DNA from: a virus
Reading direction: 5' to 3' (one strand)
Length of the DNA stretch: 45,493 nt
IMG/VR virus record: IMGVR_UViG_3300048912_000073
Span: 1 to 45,493 of that record
The notes beneath the pieces are model-generated. The model made no database searches. It was not told where the DNA came from and worked only from the letters and a program-made list of their open reading frames with translations. This document shows positions 15,471 to 45,493 of the stretch, in pieces. Position 1 is the first letter of the stretch; each line of letters opens with the position of its first letter. The translations under genes and the position numbers were made by a program.

Positions 15471-16640
15471 ATGTCGTTCGATATCCTGTTGCAAAATCCC
15501 GAAACCGACATAACGGAACGTTGGGTTCATTCCAGCGAAACGCTAACGGCGGACAACGGGAAAGAGCAACGGATATCACTCGCAAGCCTGCCCAAACGCT
15601 CTTGGTCGGGATCGTTTTTGTTTGACGACGAAGGCGACGTTCGGCGCCATGTCGCGACTATGTTTAACAAGTTCGCGACTTCGTTTAACTGGCCCTTATG
15701 GACCGAACAAACGAAGCTGAAGGCTGCCGCTGCGATCGGCGCCAACGCCCTAGTATGCAATACGGTCCGTTCGGACCTTCGCGAAGGTGCGCTTGCGATC
15801 GTCGCCGAAGGTGCAAAATACGAAGTCGTAACCGTCAACGCGATAGCGTCCGACGGTTTTACAATCACCGGCACGCTTGCAAACAGCTTTACTAAGCGAG
15901 CGCGAGTTTGCCCGATCGTTCCTGTCTATTCGGCGAACAACGCGGCGATAATTCGCAAGACTTCGAACGATTATGCGCAAGTAAACTTTTCGTTTTACGA
16001 ATACGGGTTTCAAGACCCTTTCCTAACCGAAGACGCAACGCAAACACTTGAAATGTTTGCTGGTTATCCGGTATTGAATAAGCGCGCCTTCGGTACAGAT
16101 TTTCAGGAAAACTTGATTACCGGGCTTGAAGTGACCGATTACGGCGGGCAACCGTCGTTGCGCTCGCGTTGGGATAATTCGCAATTCGGAAGGGCGCTTT
16201 CGTTCCTCTGCAATCGAACATTCGATCCAAACGATTGGGCGTGGTGGAAGACGTTCGCCGACTATTGCCGGGGATCAACGAACCCGTTCTTCATACCCAC
16301 ATTCAGGCCCGACTTTGAAATCTATACGGCTGCCGTCGGCGGGGGATCAACGATCGTCATTGCCGACACGGCGTACAGCACCGTTTTTCAGGGCAAGGAA
16401 GCCTTCAGCACGATCGCCATTACCAAACCCGACGGCACGCAACACTTTGCGACCGTGACGGGAGTTACAACCGCCCTGGGGCGCGATACGCTCACCTTTT
16501 CCCCGGCTCTGCCCGCTGGCACTTGGACGGGGCAAACTCTCGGCTTGCTCTTGAAGTGTCGCATTGCCGACGATACAGTTTCGATCTTGCATAGCGCGTC
16601 GCATTCGGTTGTGACGATCAACCTTCGGACGGTCGACTAA
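15471..16640 (+). CDS. Distal tail protein, GTA gp12-like (putative)
   Basis: The 389-residue beta-rich protein follows the tape measure gene and precedes the DUF2163/BR0599-type hub. In gene transfer agents and related siphoviruses this slot holds the distal tail protein that starts the baseplate. It contains aromatic-rich strands and a WDNSQFGRALSFLCNRTF segment. Assignment rests on order and general character. It ends by overlapping the next ATG. Confidence 0.65.
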   Translation: MSFDILLQNPETDITERWVHSSETLTADNGKEQRISLASLPKRSWSGSFLFDDEGDVRRHVATMFNKFATSFNWPLWTEQTKLKAAAAIGANALVCNTVRSDLREGALAIVAEGAKYEVVTVNAIASDGFTITGTLANSFTKRARVCPIVPVYSANNAAIIRKTSNDYAQVNFSFYEYGFQDPFLTEDATQTLEMFAGYPVLNKRAFGTDFQENLITGLEVTDYGGQPSLRSRWDNSQFGRALSFLCNRTFDPNDWAWWKTFADYCRGSTNPFFIPTFRPDFEIYTAAVGGGSTIVIADTAYSTVFQGKEAFSTIAITKPDGTQHFATVTGVTTALGRDTLTFSPALPAGTWTGQTLGLLLKCRIADDTVSILHSASHSVVTINLRTVD

Positions 16641-22092: not shown

Positions 22093-24054
22093 TTAGAAAA
22101 GCCCGCCTTGTTTCGTCGAACCGAAATACCCTAGATCGCCAAGCATTCCGAAAGCCCGATCGATGTAGTATTCATATGCGATATCGGTCGGGCATTCGTC
22201 GGGCAGTTCCATAAGAGGGCAAGCGCCTTCAGAATTCGGAACCTTGTTGCCGGTTGCGATATAGTTGATTACGCCTTGCACGCCTTGCGCATAGTACCAA
22301 CGAATTGTTTTGCCTAGAAAATAGCCGTCTTTATGCGCGCCGCCTCGCACGTTGCGAACGACGACAAAGCGGCGGATATCCTGGCACGCGCGAACCGTCT
22401 TTTCGATCGGCGTTCCCTTCGACAAGAAAGCCTGCACCGCGTCCGAACATATTAACGCTTCGGGGTTTTTCGACATTGCGGAATTTTGGGCCGAACCGCG
22501 TTCGGAATACGCGCCCTTTGCCTTCGTCGAACCGTCTTCCTTGATCGCGATATAATTGTTCACGTCGCGCGAGTAAACGGCGGCGTAACGCGTTTCTTCA
22601 GTCTGAAGCGACGTTATGCGCTCCCATTCGGCGATAACAGCGCCTAACATATTGCCCATGCGCTTAGGGCACTTGATAATAACGCCGTCGGTATTAGCCG
22701 ACACGATCGGAATTCCTGCCGCTTCGATCATTTCGATTAGCTTTAGGATAACAAGCTGGCCCGTTATCGTAACCTGAATTAGAAGATCGGGCGAGAAGAT
22801 TGACGAATAGAACGACCCTAGCTTGCCGAAGATGCCGTTAATCGCGATCTTCAATCCTGCCTCTAGCTTGTCCTTCAGCTTCTTCAGTTCCATTCGACGA
22901 AGAACAAGCCCGTCGCGGAAGATTTCAATAAACAGCTTGCCGATATGCTTCGGAAAGAAACCCGAATTGATTATAAGCCAAGGGTAAAACGATACAACGT
23001 CGCGGTCGATTAGATCGGTTTCGTCATCGGCTTTGTGAACTGCCGTCTTCTCGCTGGAATGAAGCCCTCCCATGCCCATTTTATAGACGCAAGAGCCAAT
23101 CCGTATCGACAGCTTGGACAGGGCTTCAGGCATGACCGGGGCGCCGCTGCCGTCCAGCCTAAAGGGGACGGCCTGGACAATCCGCAAGGCTTCCTGAAGC
23201 TGTGGATTGTCAAACGACAGATATTCCGGCGGCTGATAGAAGAATTCGTAATCGTCCGGCAAATCCGGCTTCTTCGGCGAGAAGCCGCGCGCTTCGCGTA
23301 TCTTCGCGTTAATGAACGCTTCGCCCACCTGGGCATCGGATTTCGAACGGATATCCTGATTGATTTCGGCGCCCAACCGCTCGCGCAATTCGACATGCGG
23401 CTTTAGCCCGTATGTGGGGTGCGAGTATAAAAGTTCGGTATTATCAAGATCGTTGAAACAATAATCTCGCGTATCAATCACGTCTTGCGGCGACAAATCC
23501 GAATGCGGATCGATCGGCAATTCCTGCATTCGCTTGCAATGAAGCCGGGCAGCATAAAGCTTCAACGAACCTTCAAGCGGTGCGACTTCGATCAAGTCGA
23601 TATGATTGTACGGCGCCCGCCAATTCGCCTTGCGTTCGTCGCGAATGATTATGTCGTCGCTAAGTTCCTTCAGTTCGTACAGCGTCGCACCTTTGCAAGC
23701 CGCTTCGATCATCGGGATATCGTACGAAATCGAGTTAAACCCGATAATCTTGAACCAATGCAACGCCCTATGCAGTTCGGTTCGCATCCATTCGGGAAGC
23801 GGACCTTCGCCGCAGTGTTCGACGTAAAAATATTCTCCGGTTCCAATGTTCTTAAAGGCGCAAAGGAAGTAGTTTCGATAACATTCAACGTCGAAAACGA
23901 CTTCGGTTCCGACAGAATAATTCCACGGCGAAACGCTGAACTTGCGCAAAACCGGCGAGTACGACAGGCGCTTTAGAACGCCGTCGTATCGCTTGGCTTT
24001 GCGCTTCGTCGGAAGCGGCGCGTAATCGTCTAACGTTGAATTGTCAAAGAACAT
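22093..24054 (-). CDS. DNA polymerase, family B
   Basis: The 653-residue protein carries exonuclease motifs: Exo I FDVE (Asp55, Glu57), Exo II around Asn107-Asp112, and Exo III YCFND (Tyr198, Asp202). The polymerase motifs follow: motif A DVVSFYP (Asp352), motif B KIAINGIFG (Lys402-Gly410) and motif C SANTDGV (Asp456). Motif C has Asn-Thr-Asp-Gly where YxDTDS is usual, so one aspartate is replaced. Proofreading residues appear intact. It should replicate the phage genome with the clamp-like protein encoded just upstream. Convergent with the tail fibre gene across only 27 bases; no terminator seen between them. Confidence 0.92.
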   Translation of the reverse strand: MFFDNSTLDDYAPLPTKRKAKRYDGVLKRLSYSPVLRKFSVSPWNYSVGTEVVFDVECYRNYFLCAFKNIGTGEYFYVEHCGEGPLPEWMRTELHRALHWFKIIGFNSISYDIPMIEAACKGATLYELKELSDDIIIRDERKANWRAPYNHIDLIEVAPLEGSLKLYAARLHCKRMQELPIDPHSDLSPQDVIDTRDYCFNDLDNTELLYSHPTYGLKPHVELRERLGAEINQDIRSKSDAQVGEAFINAKIREARGFSPKKPDLPDDYEFFYQPPEYLSFDNPQLQEALRIVQAVPFRLDGSGAPVMPEALSKLSIRIGSCVYKMGMGGLHSSEKTAVHKADDETDLIDRDVVSFYPWLIINSGFFPKHIGKLFIEIFRDGLVLRRMELKKLKDKLEAGLKIAINGIFGKLGSFYSSIFSPDLLIQVTITGQLVILKLIEMIEAAGIPIVSANTDGVIIKCPKRMGNMLGAVIAEWERITSLQTEETRYAAVYSRDVNNYIAIKEDGSTKAKGAYSERGSAQNSAMSKNPEALICSDAVQAFLSKGTPIEKTVRACQDIRRFVVVRNVRGGAHKDGYFLGKTIRWYYAQGVQGVINYIATGNKVPNSEGACPLMELPDECPTDIAYEYYIDRAFGMLGDLGYFGSTKQGGLF

Positions 24055-34487: not shown

Positions 34488-34511
34488 TGTGGGCACAAGG
34501 AAGCAATATCG

Positions 34512-35063
34512 ATGCAAGGTGCGAAGGTTGTTCCGATTGATAAGGCGACAGCCGATCGATTGATTGTCGCTAGGCATTATAGCAAGCGCGCTTCGATCTT
34601 TTGGAAAGGCTTCGCGCTTGTGTTCGACGGGCGCGTTTATGGCGTTGTCGTGTACGGGCAGCCTTCTCCGCCTATTCAAAAGCATTCGTTTAAAGATCGC
34701 GATTTTCGCTTGTACGAATTGTCGCGCCTTGTCATTCAAACAACGAAGCGCAACGCGGCGAGTTACCTTGTCGCGCAAAGTTTGAAGATGCTCGAACAGC
34801 CTTGCGCGGTTGTGTCGTATGCCGATAGCGAACACGGGCACGCGGGCATTGTCTATCAAGCGACGAATTGGATTTACACCGGCGCGACGAAATCGCACGA
34901 TCATGCCTATCTTGTCGACGGCAAGCGCGTTCATCCGATTTCGCTTCGTGACAAAGGGATAACCGATCCGAAGCGATGGGCGAAAGAAAACGGGATCAAG
35001 ACGTTACCCCCCCTGCGACAAACATCGTTATTTCTTCATTTGCGGCAATCGTCGGCAGCGTAA
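34512..35063 (+). CDS. Mom-like DNA-modification protein, C-terminus lost by frameshift
   Basis: Residues 1-165 match the Mom family (GNAT-like adenine methylcarbamoyl transferase of phage Mu): HYSKRASIFWKGFALVFDG, LYELSRLVI, ASYLVAQSLKML, VVSYADSEHGHAGIVYQATN and WIYTG. These proteins hypermodify phage DNA to resist restriction. The frame leaves the family pattern at a run of seven C (35007-35013) and stops at 35063. The missing family C-terminus is intact in the +1 frame (see 35014-35172). With six C the protein would be 219 residues, close to Mu Mom. Ribosome site AAGGAAG, ATG 34512. Confidence 0.85.
   Translation: MQGAKVVPIDKATADRLIVARHYSKRASIFWKGFALVFDGRVYGVVVYGQPSPPIQKHSFKDRDFRLYELSRLVIQTTKRNAASYLVAQSLKMLEQPCAVVSYADSEHGHAGIVYQATNWIYTGATKSHDHAYLVDGKRVHPISLRDKGITDPKRWAKENGIKTLPPLRQTSLFLHLRQSSAA
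35007..35013 (+). other. Seven-C homopolymer inside the Mom-like gene
   Basis: The run CCCCCCC splits the gene into two frames. Such tracts are hot spots for slipped-strand mutation and for sequencing/assembly error, and can cause phase variation. Confidence 0.8.
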
Positions 35064-35172
35064 GGACATGCTTGCAAAGCTGACATATCCGATCGTTGCG
35101 GAATATCCCAAGCTTCCGAAATCGATGTATGAAAACGGCGATTTCGTCGAAATCTTGCACGAAACCGCTTGA
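35014..35172 (+). pseudogene. Out-of-frame C-terminal part of the Mom-like gene
   Basis: The +1 frame after the C7 tract reads CDKHRYFFICGNRRQRKDM, then LTYPIVAEYPK, and ends TGA at 35170-35172. HRYFF-G-(N/K)RRQ(R/K) and a Tyr-Pro end are what Mom-family proteins show at this point. A one-base length change in the homopolymer, or +1 slippage, would join it to the upstream frame. The TGA stop is part of the TTGACA of promoter P2. Confidence 0.85.
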
Positions 35173-44193: not shown

Positions 44194-44797
44194 ACTTCCG
44201 CCGTCGGGCAAAGCAACGCTTGTCGGGATCGTCGGAACCGCCGTTGCGCTCGCGCTTGGCATGGCCATTCCGGCAAACGAAAGCGGTCGCAGCGTTCGCG
44301 CCGAAGTCACAACCGACGGGCACCTTCAGCTAACCCATTTAAGCGGCAAGCAATACCTTCGCGCGTACCTTGACGTTGTGAATGTCGCAACGGCTTGCGA
44401 TGGTTTGACGCGATATCAAGGTAAGCCGATCAAGGTCGGCGATCGGTTTACCGAAGCGCAATGCGTATCGATGCTTGAAGCCGAGTTGACCGAAACCGCG
44501 CGCGGCGTCATGGCGTGTTCGCCGGGGCTGGCGCTATCTTCGAACTTGACAAGCGAAACCATGCGGCAGGGGCCGCGCTTCGCTGCCGTATCGCTCGCGT
44601 ACAACGTCGGCGTTCCGACCTATTGCAAGTCGACCGCTCGCGCTCGCTTCAACGCCGGGGCTTATCCCCAGGGCTGCGAAGCGGTCACTTGGTACAATCG
44701 CGCGGGCGGCGTAGTTAGCAAGGGATTAAGCGCGCGGCGCGCTCGCGAAGCGAATGTATGCCGCAATGGGCTAGGGGTTTTGTATGGTCGACCTTAA
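44180..44797 (+). CDS. GH24-type SAR endolysin (lysozyme)
   Basis: The start ATG 44180 overlaps the holin end. Residues about 12-30 (ATLVGIVGTAVALALGMAI) form a signal-anchor-release segment, so export may not need the holin channel. Lysozyme features follow: LRAYLDVV (Asp65), TACDG with Thr71, FTEAQC, SLAYNVG and WNRAGG. The usual catalytic Glu about nine residues before the Asp is not present; the segment reads HLSGKQ. Either the family uses another acid or activity is altered. The 205-residue length fits. Confidence 0.8.
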   Translation: MQRPELPPSGKATLVGIVGTAVALALGMAIPANESGRSVRAEVTTDGHLQLTHLSGKQYLRAYLDVVNVATACDGLTRYQGKPIKVGDRFTEAQCVSMLEAELTETARGVMACSPGLALSSNLTSETMRQGPRFAAVSLAYNVGVPTYCKSTARARFNAGAYPQGCEAVTWYNRAGGVVSKGLSARRAREANVCRNGLGVLYGRP

Positions 44798-44888
44798 CAC
44801 GATTTACCGTTGCCTTTTCGCGGTAATTGGCATCGGCGTTGCTATCGTCGGCGGCATGGCCGAAGGGTTGATAAAATGGCATATGTAA
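44784..44888 (+). CDS. Small single-span membrane protein (34 aa), second allele
   Basis: Diverged copy of the 119-223 frame, same length, overlapping lysozyme and i-spanin genes. Conservation of the frame with conservative changes supports translation. Confidence 0.5.
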   Translation: MVDLNTIYRCLFAVIGIGVAIVGGMAEGLIKWHM

Positions 44889-45265
44889 AGCTTGCGCTGA
44901 AGTTCGGCCCTTACGTCGTAATCGCCGCTTTGATCGCGCTTGTCCTTTGGTATCGCGGCGACATGGCCAAGGCGAACGGCGATAAGCACGCATTGGCCGT
45001 CGAACTTCAAAGCGCAATTGACGCGAACAAGGAAGCGCAAAAGACGGTGGACGCCGTTCGTGCGCAACGTGTTGACAACGACGCAATCGCCGAAGCGGTC
45101 GCAAACAAGCTAGAAACCAACCGGGCGTTATTCGATCGGCGCACGGTCCTATTGAGGGAAGCGCGCAATGATCCGCAAGTTCGCAGTTGGGCTGATACTC
45201 CCGTTCCTGGCAGCGTGCGGGCCGCGCTTGCCGCCCCCGGTGAAGTACGCCAGCCGCCCCGCTGA
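44876..45265 (+). CDS. Rz-like i-spanin, second allele
   Basis: Same length (129 residues) and layout as 211-600. The membrane segment here reads FGPYVVIAALIALVLWY. Many charged positions differ, but the embedded o-spanin frame is preserved too. Confidence 0.85.
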   Translation: MAYVKLALKFGPYVVIAALIALVLWYRGDMAKANGDKHALAVELQSAIDANKEAQKTVDAVRAQRVDNDAIAEAVANKLETNRALFDRRTVLLREARNDPQVRSWADTPVPGSVRAALAAPGEVRQPPR

Positions 45266-45446
45266 TTTGCCCGACGCGGCCCTTGTGGCGCCGTGCGACA
45301 CGTCCGACCGCGATGTACCGACCAACGGCGATCTAGCGGACGAATTGAACCGCACGCGGCGGCAGCGCAACGATTGTGCGACCAATGTCGACGGGCTTAG
45401 GCAATGGCGAGCCGACGCGCTGAAGCGGTCCGAAGTCGACAAGTGA
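45168..45446 (+). CDS. Rz1-like o-spanin, second allele
   Basis: Same length (92 residues) as 503-781, with lipobox Leu-Ala-Ala-Cys (Cys17) and the PRLPPPVKY Pro-rich segment. Differences cluster in the signal peptide and at residues about 44-75. Confidence 0.85.
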   Translation: MIRKFAVGLILPFLAACGPRLPPPVKYASRPADLPDAALVAPCDTSDRDVPTNGDLADELNRTRRQRNDCATNVDGLRQWRADALKRSEVDK

Positions 45447-45447
45447 A

Positions 45448-45493
45448 ATGGAATACGCAAGCACGATCGAAGCCGCTTTTCGGCTTGATCCTG
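45448..45493 (+). CDS. Hypothetical 55-aa protein, start only (contig end)
   Basis: The first 46 bases match 783-828 exactly. The gene is cut by the end of the contig; the full version is at 783-950. Confidence 0.55.
   Translation, partial: MEYASTIEAAFRLDP

Follow-up and report, generated by a model that had tools for sequence, protein, structure and literature searches.

A Mom-family gene of a tailed phage broken by one extra nucleotide at a C7 tract, and possible homopolymer switching of mom in other lineages

Introduction

Phage Mu Mom is the closest described counterpart of the gene considered here; the activity that marks the Mom family is N6-carbamoylmethyl modification of adenine in virion DNA. 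In Mu, mom is under very tight control because Mom is costly to the host cell, with transcription governed by Dam and OxyR and translation by Com. The gene in our window (the whole 45,493-base stretch of DNA that was analysed) resembles Mu Mom (8bv8; PF25680/PHROG 1384) in profile, in full-length coverage once its two frames are joined, in GNAT-like fold and in size; the frame of Mu mom is intact, however, whereas that of the window mom is broken at a run of seven C. Com control of Mu mom translation is among the subjects of PMC6483171.

The second point of reference is the poly-G/C contingency loci of Neisseria, Campylobacter and Helicobacter, together with phase-variable methyltransferases. 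In these loci, as in some mom genes described below, the length of a tract within the reading frame sets the frame, rare tract codons are kept, and in-frame and out-of-frame alleles occur in close relatives. Unlike bacterial phase-variable methyltransferases, Mom is a phage-borne hypermodification enzyme, and unlike contingency loci in general the window has a tract of only C7, with one length in two contigs. Much is known of Mom and of slipped-strand phase variation separately, and no paper combining them was found in the open-access literature searched, the coverage of which is incomplete.

A Mom-family gene in two frames

The record encodes a tailed phage, with genes for terminase, portal, major head protein, tape measure, DNA polymerase, helicase and primase. 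Among cultured phages, the DNA around mom had no match apart from an 87-nt stretch in Proteus phages, 75% identical. The mom gene lies on the plus strand, and direct reading of the sequence places a Shine–Dalgarno-like AAGGAAG at 34497–34503, 8 nt before the ATG. The frame that opens there (34512–35063) encodes 183 amino acids, the first 167 of which are Mom sequence (PF25680, E 3e-28) and the final 16 out of frame. The change of frame falls at the C7 tract (35007–35013), in the context TTA CCC CCC C-TGC GAC. Beginning at 35014, the +1 frame encodes CDKHRYFFICGNRRQRKDMLAKLTYPIVAEYPK... and ends at the TGA at 35170–35172, so that 35014–35172 holds the 52 C-terminal codons of mom, with the stop, including the KHRYFF, GNRRQR and YPK motifs and the invariant Tyr173.

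Joining the frames by reading CCCC as one Pro, with one C skipped, gives a protein of 219 amino acids. Against PF25680, for which the curated cut-off is 27.1 bits, this protein scores 111.5 bits (E 5.6e-32) and covers positions 4–201 of 202; the first part alone scores 99.3 bits and its match ends at position 164. With the ‘Mom-like’ profile PHROG 1384 the joined protein scores 145 bits, and the C-terminal piece by itself still reaches E=0.0021. A sequence search of the PDB returned Mu Mom 8bv8 as the sole notable match (profile E 5e-28; single sequence 2e-8). An AlphaFold model built with 43 homologues (pLDDT 87.7, pTM 0.80) has the Mu Mom fold: a Foldseek search places 8bv8 at the top (E 6.7e-10, probability 1.00, TM 0.63–0.68), followed by GNAT acetyltransferases. 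A preliminary description, made from the letters alone, had assigned the upstream frame to the Mom family, had seen the C-terminal Mom motifs resume in the +1 frame right at CCCCCCC, and had predicted a Mom-sized product upon loss of one C. All of this was reproduced, and an extra nucleotide at CCCCCCC does break a Mom-family gene in 34512–35172.

The break removes much of what is best conserved. Among 43 family sequences Tyr173 is invariant, and Lys170, Arg172 and Tyr198-Pro199-Lys200 are near-invariant; all lie downstream of the tract, as do a strand (170–177) and a helix (180–189) modelled with pLDDT of about 90–98. The frame-0 product replaces the 52 C-terminal residues with 16 unrelated ones after codon 167, so it stops before both Tyr173 and YPK, and no single intact frame contains them. 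This truncated product is very probably inactive. Judged from its sequence, the window gene belongs to the Mom family but is broken or switched off, a predicted enzyme and no proven active Mom.

Support for the seventh C

Indel errors arise most often in homopolymers, and the analysis covered assembled contigs; a true C6 was one of the options, as in the preliminary description. A second contig, IMGVR_UViG_3300048916_000081 (28,431 bp), matches window positions 16362–44792 with 25 substitutions and has the same C7. It stops exactly at the 127-mer that occupies 44666–44792 of the window and also forms the first 127 bases of the window, and such an exact 127-nt overlap at contig ends looks like the product of a SPAdes k=127 graph and hence of Illumina reads. 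With such reads a wrong 7-mer in the consensus is unlikely. With a second contig that differs from the window elsewhere and still has C7, and with SPAdes-like contig ends, an error of sequencing or assembly is therefore improbable.

These two contigs, otherwise nearly identical, are the only ones known for this phage, and there is no length variant between them. A scan of IMG/VR with the window flanks and C6 to C9 between them returned only the sister contig (C7), and no C6, C8 or C9 copy. All 25 differences between the contigs fall within 415 bases (22216–22630), where the C-terminal part of DNA polymerase is encoded (gene at 22093–24054, minus strand), a cluster that could reflect either local recombination or a chimeric join. 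Positions 1–127 of the window are identical to 44666–44792 and the sequences diverge thereafter, the two ends of the record being 87.7% identical over 828 bp (1–828 against 44666–45493). They are two versions of one region; the genome is probably circular, about 44.7 kb long, and the join of the assembly falls on a variant from a co-occurring strain.

Age of the break and translational frameshifting

Over 43 aligned residues after the break, the window protein is 60% identical to its two nearest relatives, which are 58% identical to each other. Substitutions over 42 codons of this part are distributed 11/12/30 among codon positions 1/2/3. This retained identity and codon-structured pattern show that the downstream piece is more than a chance match, and the +1 frame still looks like constrained coding sequence with no decay, which suggests that the change is recent.

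All 15 of the relatives of the same clade (L003–L017), which are 52–71% identical over the alignment, have an intact gene. The tract is missing from those compared codon by codon, which have for instance CCG CCG ATG or CCC CCG ATG where the window has CCC CCC C TGC; the Pro-Pro or equivalent region uses other codons, and the tract is not one that selection has maintained in this clade. Homologues missing the C-terminal motifs as well as the tract would, according to the preliminary description, have refuted its reading; the relatives do lack the tract, but they keep the motifs. In the window phage CCC occurs 12.1 times per 1000 codons and makes up 23% of Pro codons, and because it is not rare, selection is not required to account for the C run. 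The tract is the sole G/C run of seven in the whole 45.5 kb, and is short for the phase-variable class.

The downstream frame, still constrained, would also fit ribosomal slippage from CCC to CCC at CCC-CCC-CUG, which would yield full-length Mom at some rate. The sequence CCC-C permits perfect re-pairing of tRNA-Pro one base on, and there are precedents for +1 shifts at CCC in the Listeria phages PSA, A118 and A500 (PMC5009743) and in E. coli, where a +1-nt rpoB mutation is suppressed by about 66% at CCC-AGG-C (PMC7022156). In PSA, the nearest parallel, a phage gene likewise slips in the +1 direction at CCC; the PSA site, however, adjoins a stop codon or pseudoknot, and the tsh site is common to A118 and A500 (PMC5009743). 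More generally, in the Listeria phage and rpoB cases the shift is favoured by a stop codon, a rare codon or structure. At the window site the A site offers neither a stop nor a rare codon (CUG 10.9 and CCC 12.1 per 1000), RNA folds of 35014–35110 and 34970–35070 are no better than those of shuffled sequences (z -0.47 and +1.76), and the C7 site is missing from relatives. Programmed +1 frameshifting, another option of the preliminary description, is accordingly not supported, the slip codon being present with no pause or stimulator and at an unconserved site. Low-level translational leakage at C7 is possible, and as an account of how Mom would be made we regard ribosomal slippage as rather unlikely.

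Poly-G tracts in other mom lineages

The wider family was surveyed at 375 loci, representing 245 distinct mom DNAs, in which frame-changing profile matches were sought. The loci came from eight IMG/VR scans (seven with proteins, one with a pattern), one scan of bacterial genomes and single fetches. Poly-A runs of eight or more, frequent in the mom genes of AT-rich phages, did not count as evidence. Tract lengths are assembly consensus calls, and long G runs are prone to miscalling.

Of the 245 mom DNAs, those from a MAG or from metagenome-derived virus contigs include nine that change frame at one site, and each of the nine does so at a G/C run of seven or more. One is the C7 of the window and the others are in poly-G. 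Sense-strand poly-G tracts of 7–10 recur at no fewer than four positions in mom, and at three of these the frame is in or out according to tract length among relatives. At the first, near profile position 150, six genes with G8 are in frame (L136, L137, L138, L139, L217 and L223) and two are off, L102 with G9 and L224 with G7; L340, also off, has G9 and a break near this position. Sister genes (L220–L222 and L140–L142) encode the same Gly-Gly with no run. The tract codons are rare in the same contigs, GGG accounting for 7–15% of Gly codons and AGG for 1–18% of Arg codons. The tightest comparison is between L223 (G8, in frame) and L102 (G9, out of frame): their contigs show 97% identity over 5.8 kb, and inside mom three substitutions and the one G separate them; here, then, close relatives differ both in tract length and in frame. 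In the order to which the L102 MAG belongs, mom was found in 2 of 189 genomes, and the second has no G/C run of six or more.

Near profile position 60, L145 with G8 is in frame while L177 and L236, both G9, are off. Near position 34, L116 with G9 is in frame, L069 (G10) and L380 (G8) are off, and the relatives L115, L117 and L118 have no run. Members at these two positions are about 70% identical or less, and are thus relatives, not strains. At the fourth position, near 128, the one tract is the G9 of L187, which is off.

Counting G/C runs of eight or more, with mom clustered at 90% identity, gave 11 in 129 kb of mom against 11 in 1,243 kb of flanks (p=1.3e-6), an enrichment that is partly ascertained, as later scans were queried with tract-bearing genes. 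From the first query alone there were two tracts in mom and four in flanks (p=0.07), and counting four or so origins instead of eleven gave p=0.03 on an earlier set. The recurrence of tracts at the same position with varied lengths, the in-frame and out-of-frame states and the rare codons outweigh the p-value as evidence.

Several broken mom genes were set aside as candidate switches. The Paenibacillus chromosomal copies L103, L108 and L110 are decayed and have no tract, and mom of the cultured Salinibacter phage B2_17 is frame-broken, again with no tract. The mom gene of a Taibaiella lutea prophage (L105, 7958–8549; also L183 and L270) has no tract and is interrupted by an in-frame TGA at about profile position 155, before and after which the sequence is conserved.

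Switching or inactivation

Mom phase variation is likely in the family, because there are pairs in which tract length and frame change together and because all nine breaks sit at G/C runs; for the window phage it is plausible but unproven. In the poly-G lineages a change of homopolymer length by one would turn full-length Mom on or off. In the window, polymerase slippage from C6 to C7 in the Pro-Pro codon run would have shifted the frame, so that the product ends 16 residues past codon 167, short of the conserved strand and helix at the C terminus and of Tyr173. Mom would then be held OFF by one extra C, and the same slippage could in principle revert; we infer that such reversion may occur in nature. 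A switch of this kind would allow particles with and without the modification to coexist in one phage population.

Recent inactivation and slipped-strand switching, the two remaining options of the preliminary description, both fit the locus. The former would be a one-way event, a routine +1 indel where the gene is most prone to slippage, with no selected switching. It is consistent with a clade that has no selected tract, with the shortness of C7, with two otherwise nearly identical contigs that are both off, and with the decayed, tract-less mom copies found elsewhere, L103, L108 and L110 among them. Against it, the gene is otherwise undamaged, with normal coding constraint downstream, and broken mom genes in metagenome-derived virus contigs sit at G/C runs and not at scattered lesions. 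We consider one-way inactivation a doubtful but serious alternative. The argument against a switch in the window is drawn from much the same facts, namely a tract of only C7, of the same length in both contigs, in a clade that lacks it.

For the window phage taken alone, the best supported statement is that a real and recent slippage indel turned mom off, its reversibility being unproven. The preferred joint reading, that window Mom is OFF through recent C7 slippage, revertible in principle, in the way that poly-G members of the family appear to be switched, is given a probability of about 0.5. The broader proposal, in which Mom is a recurrent contingency locus where homopolymer tracts arose at least four times and were kept for on/off switching, with the window C7 as a nascent or minimal case, is perhaps slightly better than an even bet. 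The preliminary description had thought Mom phase variation new to the family, and it gains support from the sequences of other Mom lineages, though not directly from the window phage.

If switching is real, separate phage lineages would be gambling on DNA modification much as bacteria do with phase-variable restriction-modification, and the question of when modification pays would become testable by read tract-length counts across hosts and restriction backgrounds. The poly-G mom genes are a set of candidate phase-variable phage modification genes.

Gene neighbourhoods

Two features of gene arrangement were also seen. Eight contigs (L026, L028, L032, L035, L051, L054, L062 and L096) contain two diverged mom genes on the same strand, a few kilobases apart, and in most of these the paired genes are adjacent or nearly so. 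In L137 (2432–3040) and L145 (2288–3046) a gene that looks ParB-like overlaps or abuts the start of mom, and ParB-like proteins are annotated beside mom in Enterococcus phage phiEf11 and a Lactobacillus amylovorus plasmid, which suggests that the two genes may form a unit. The junction of the ParB-like gene and mom has a G9 or G7 run in L147 and L236.
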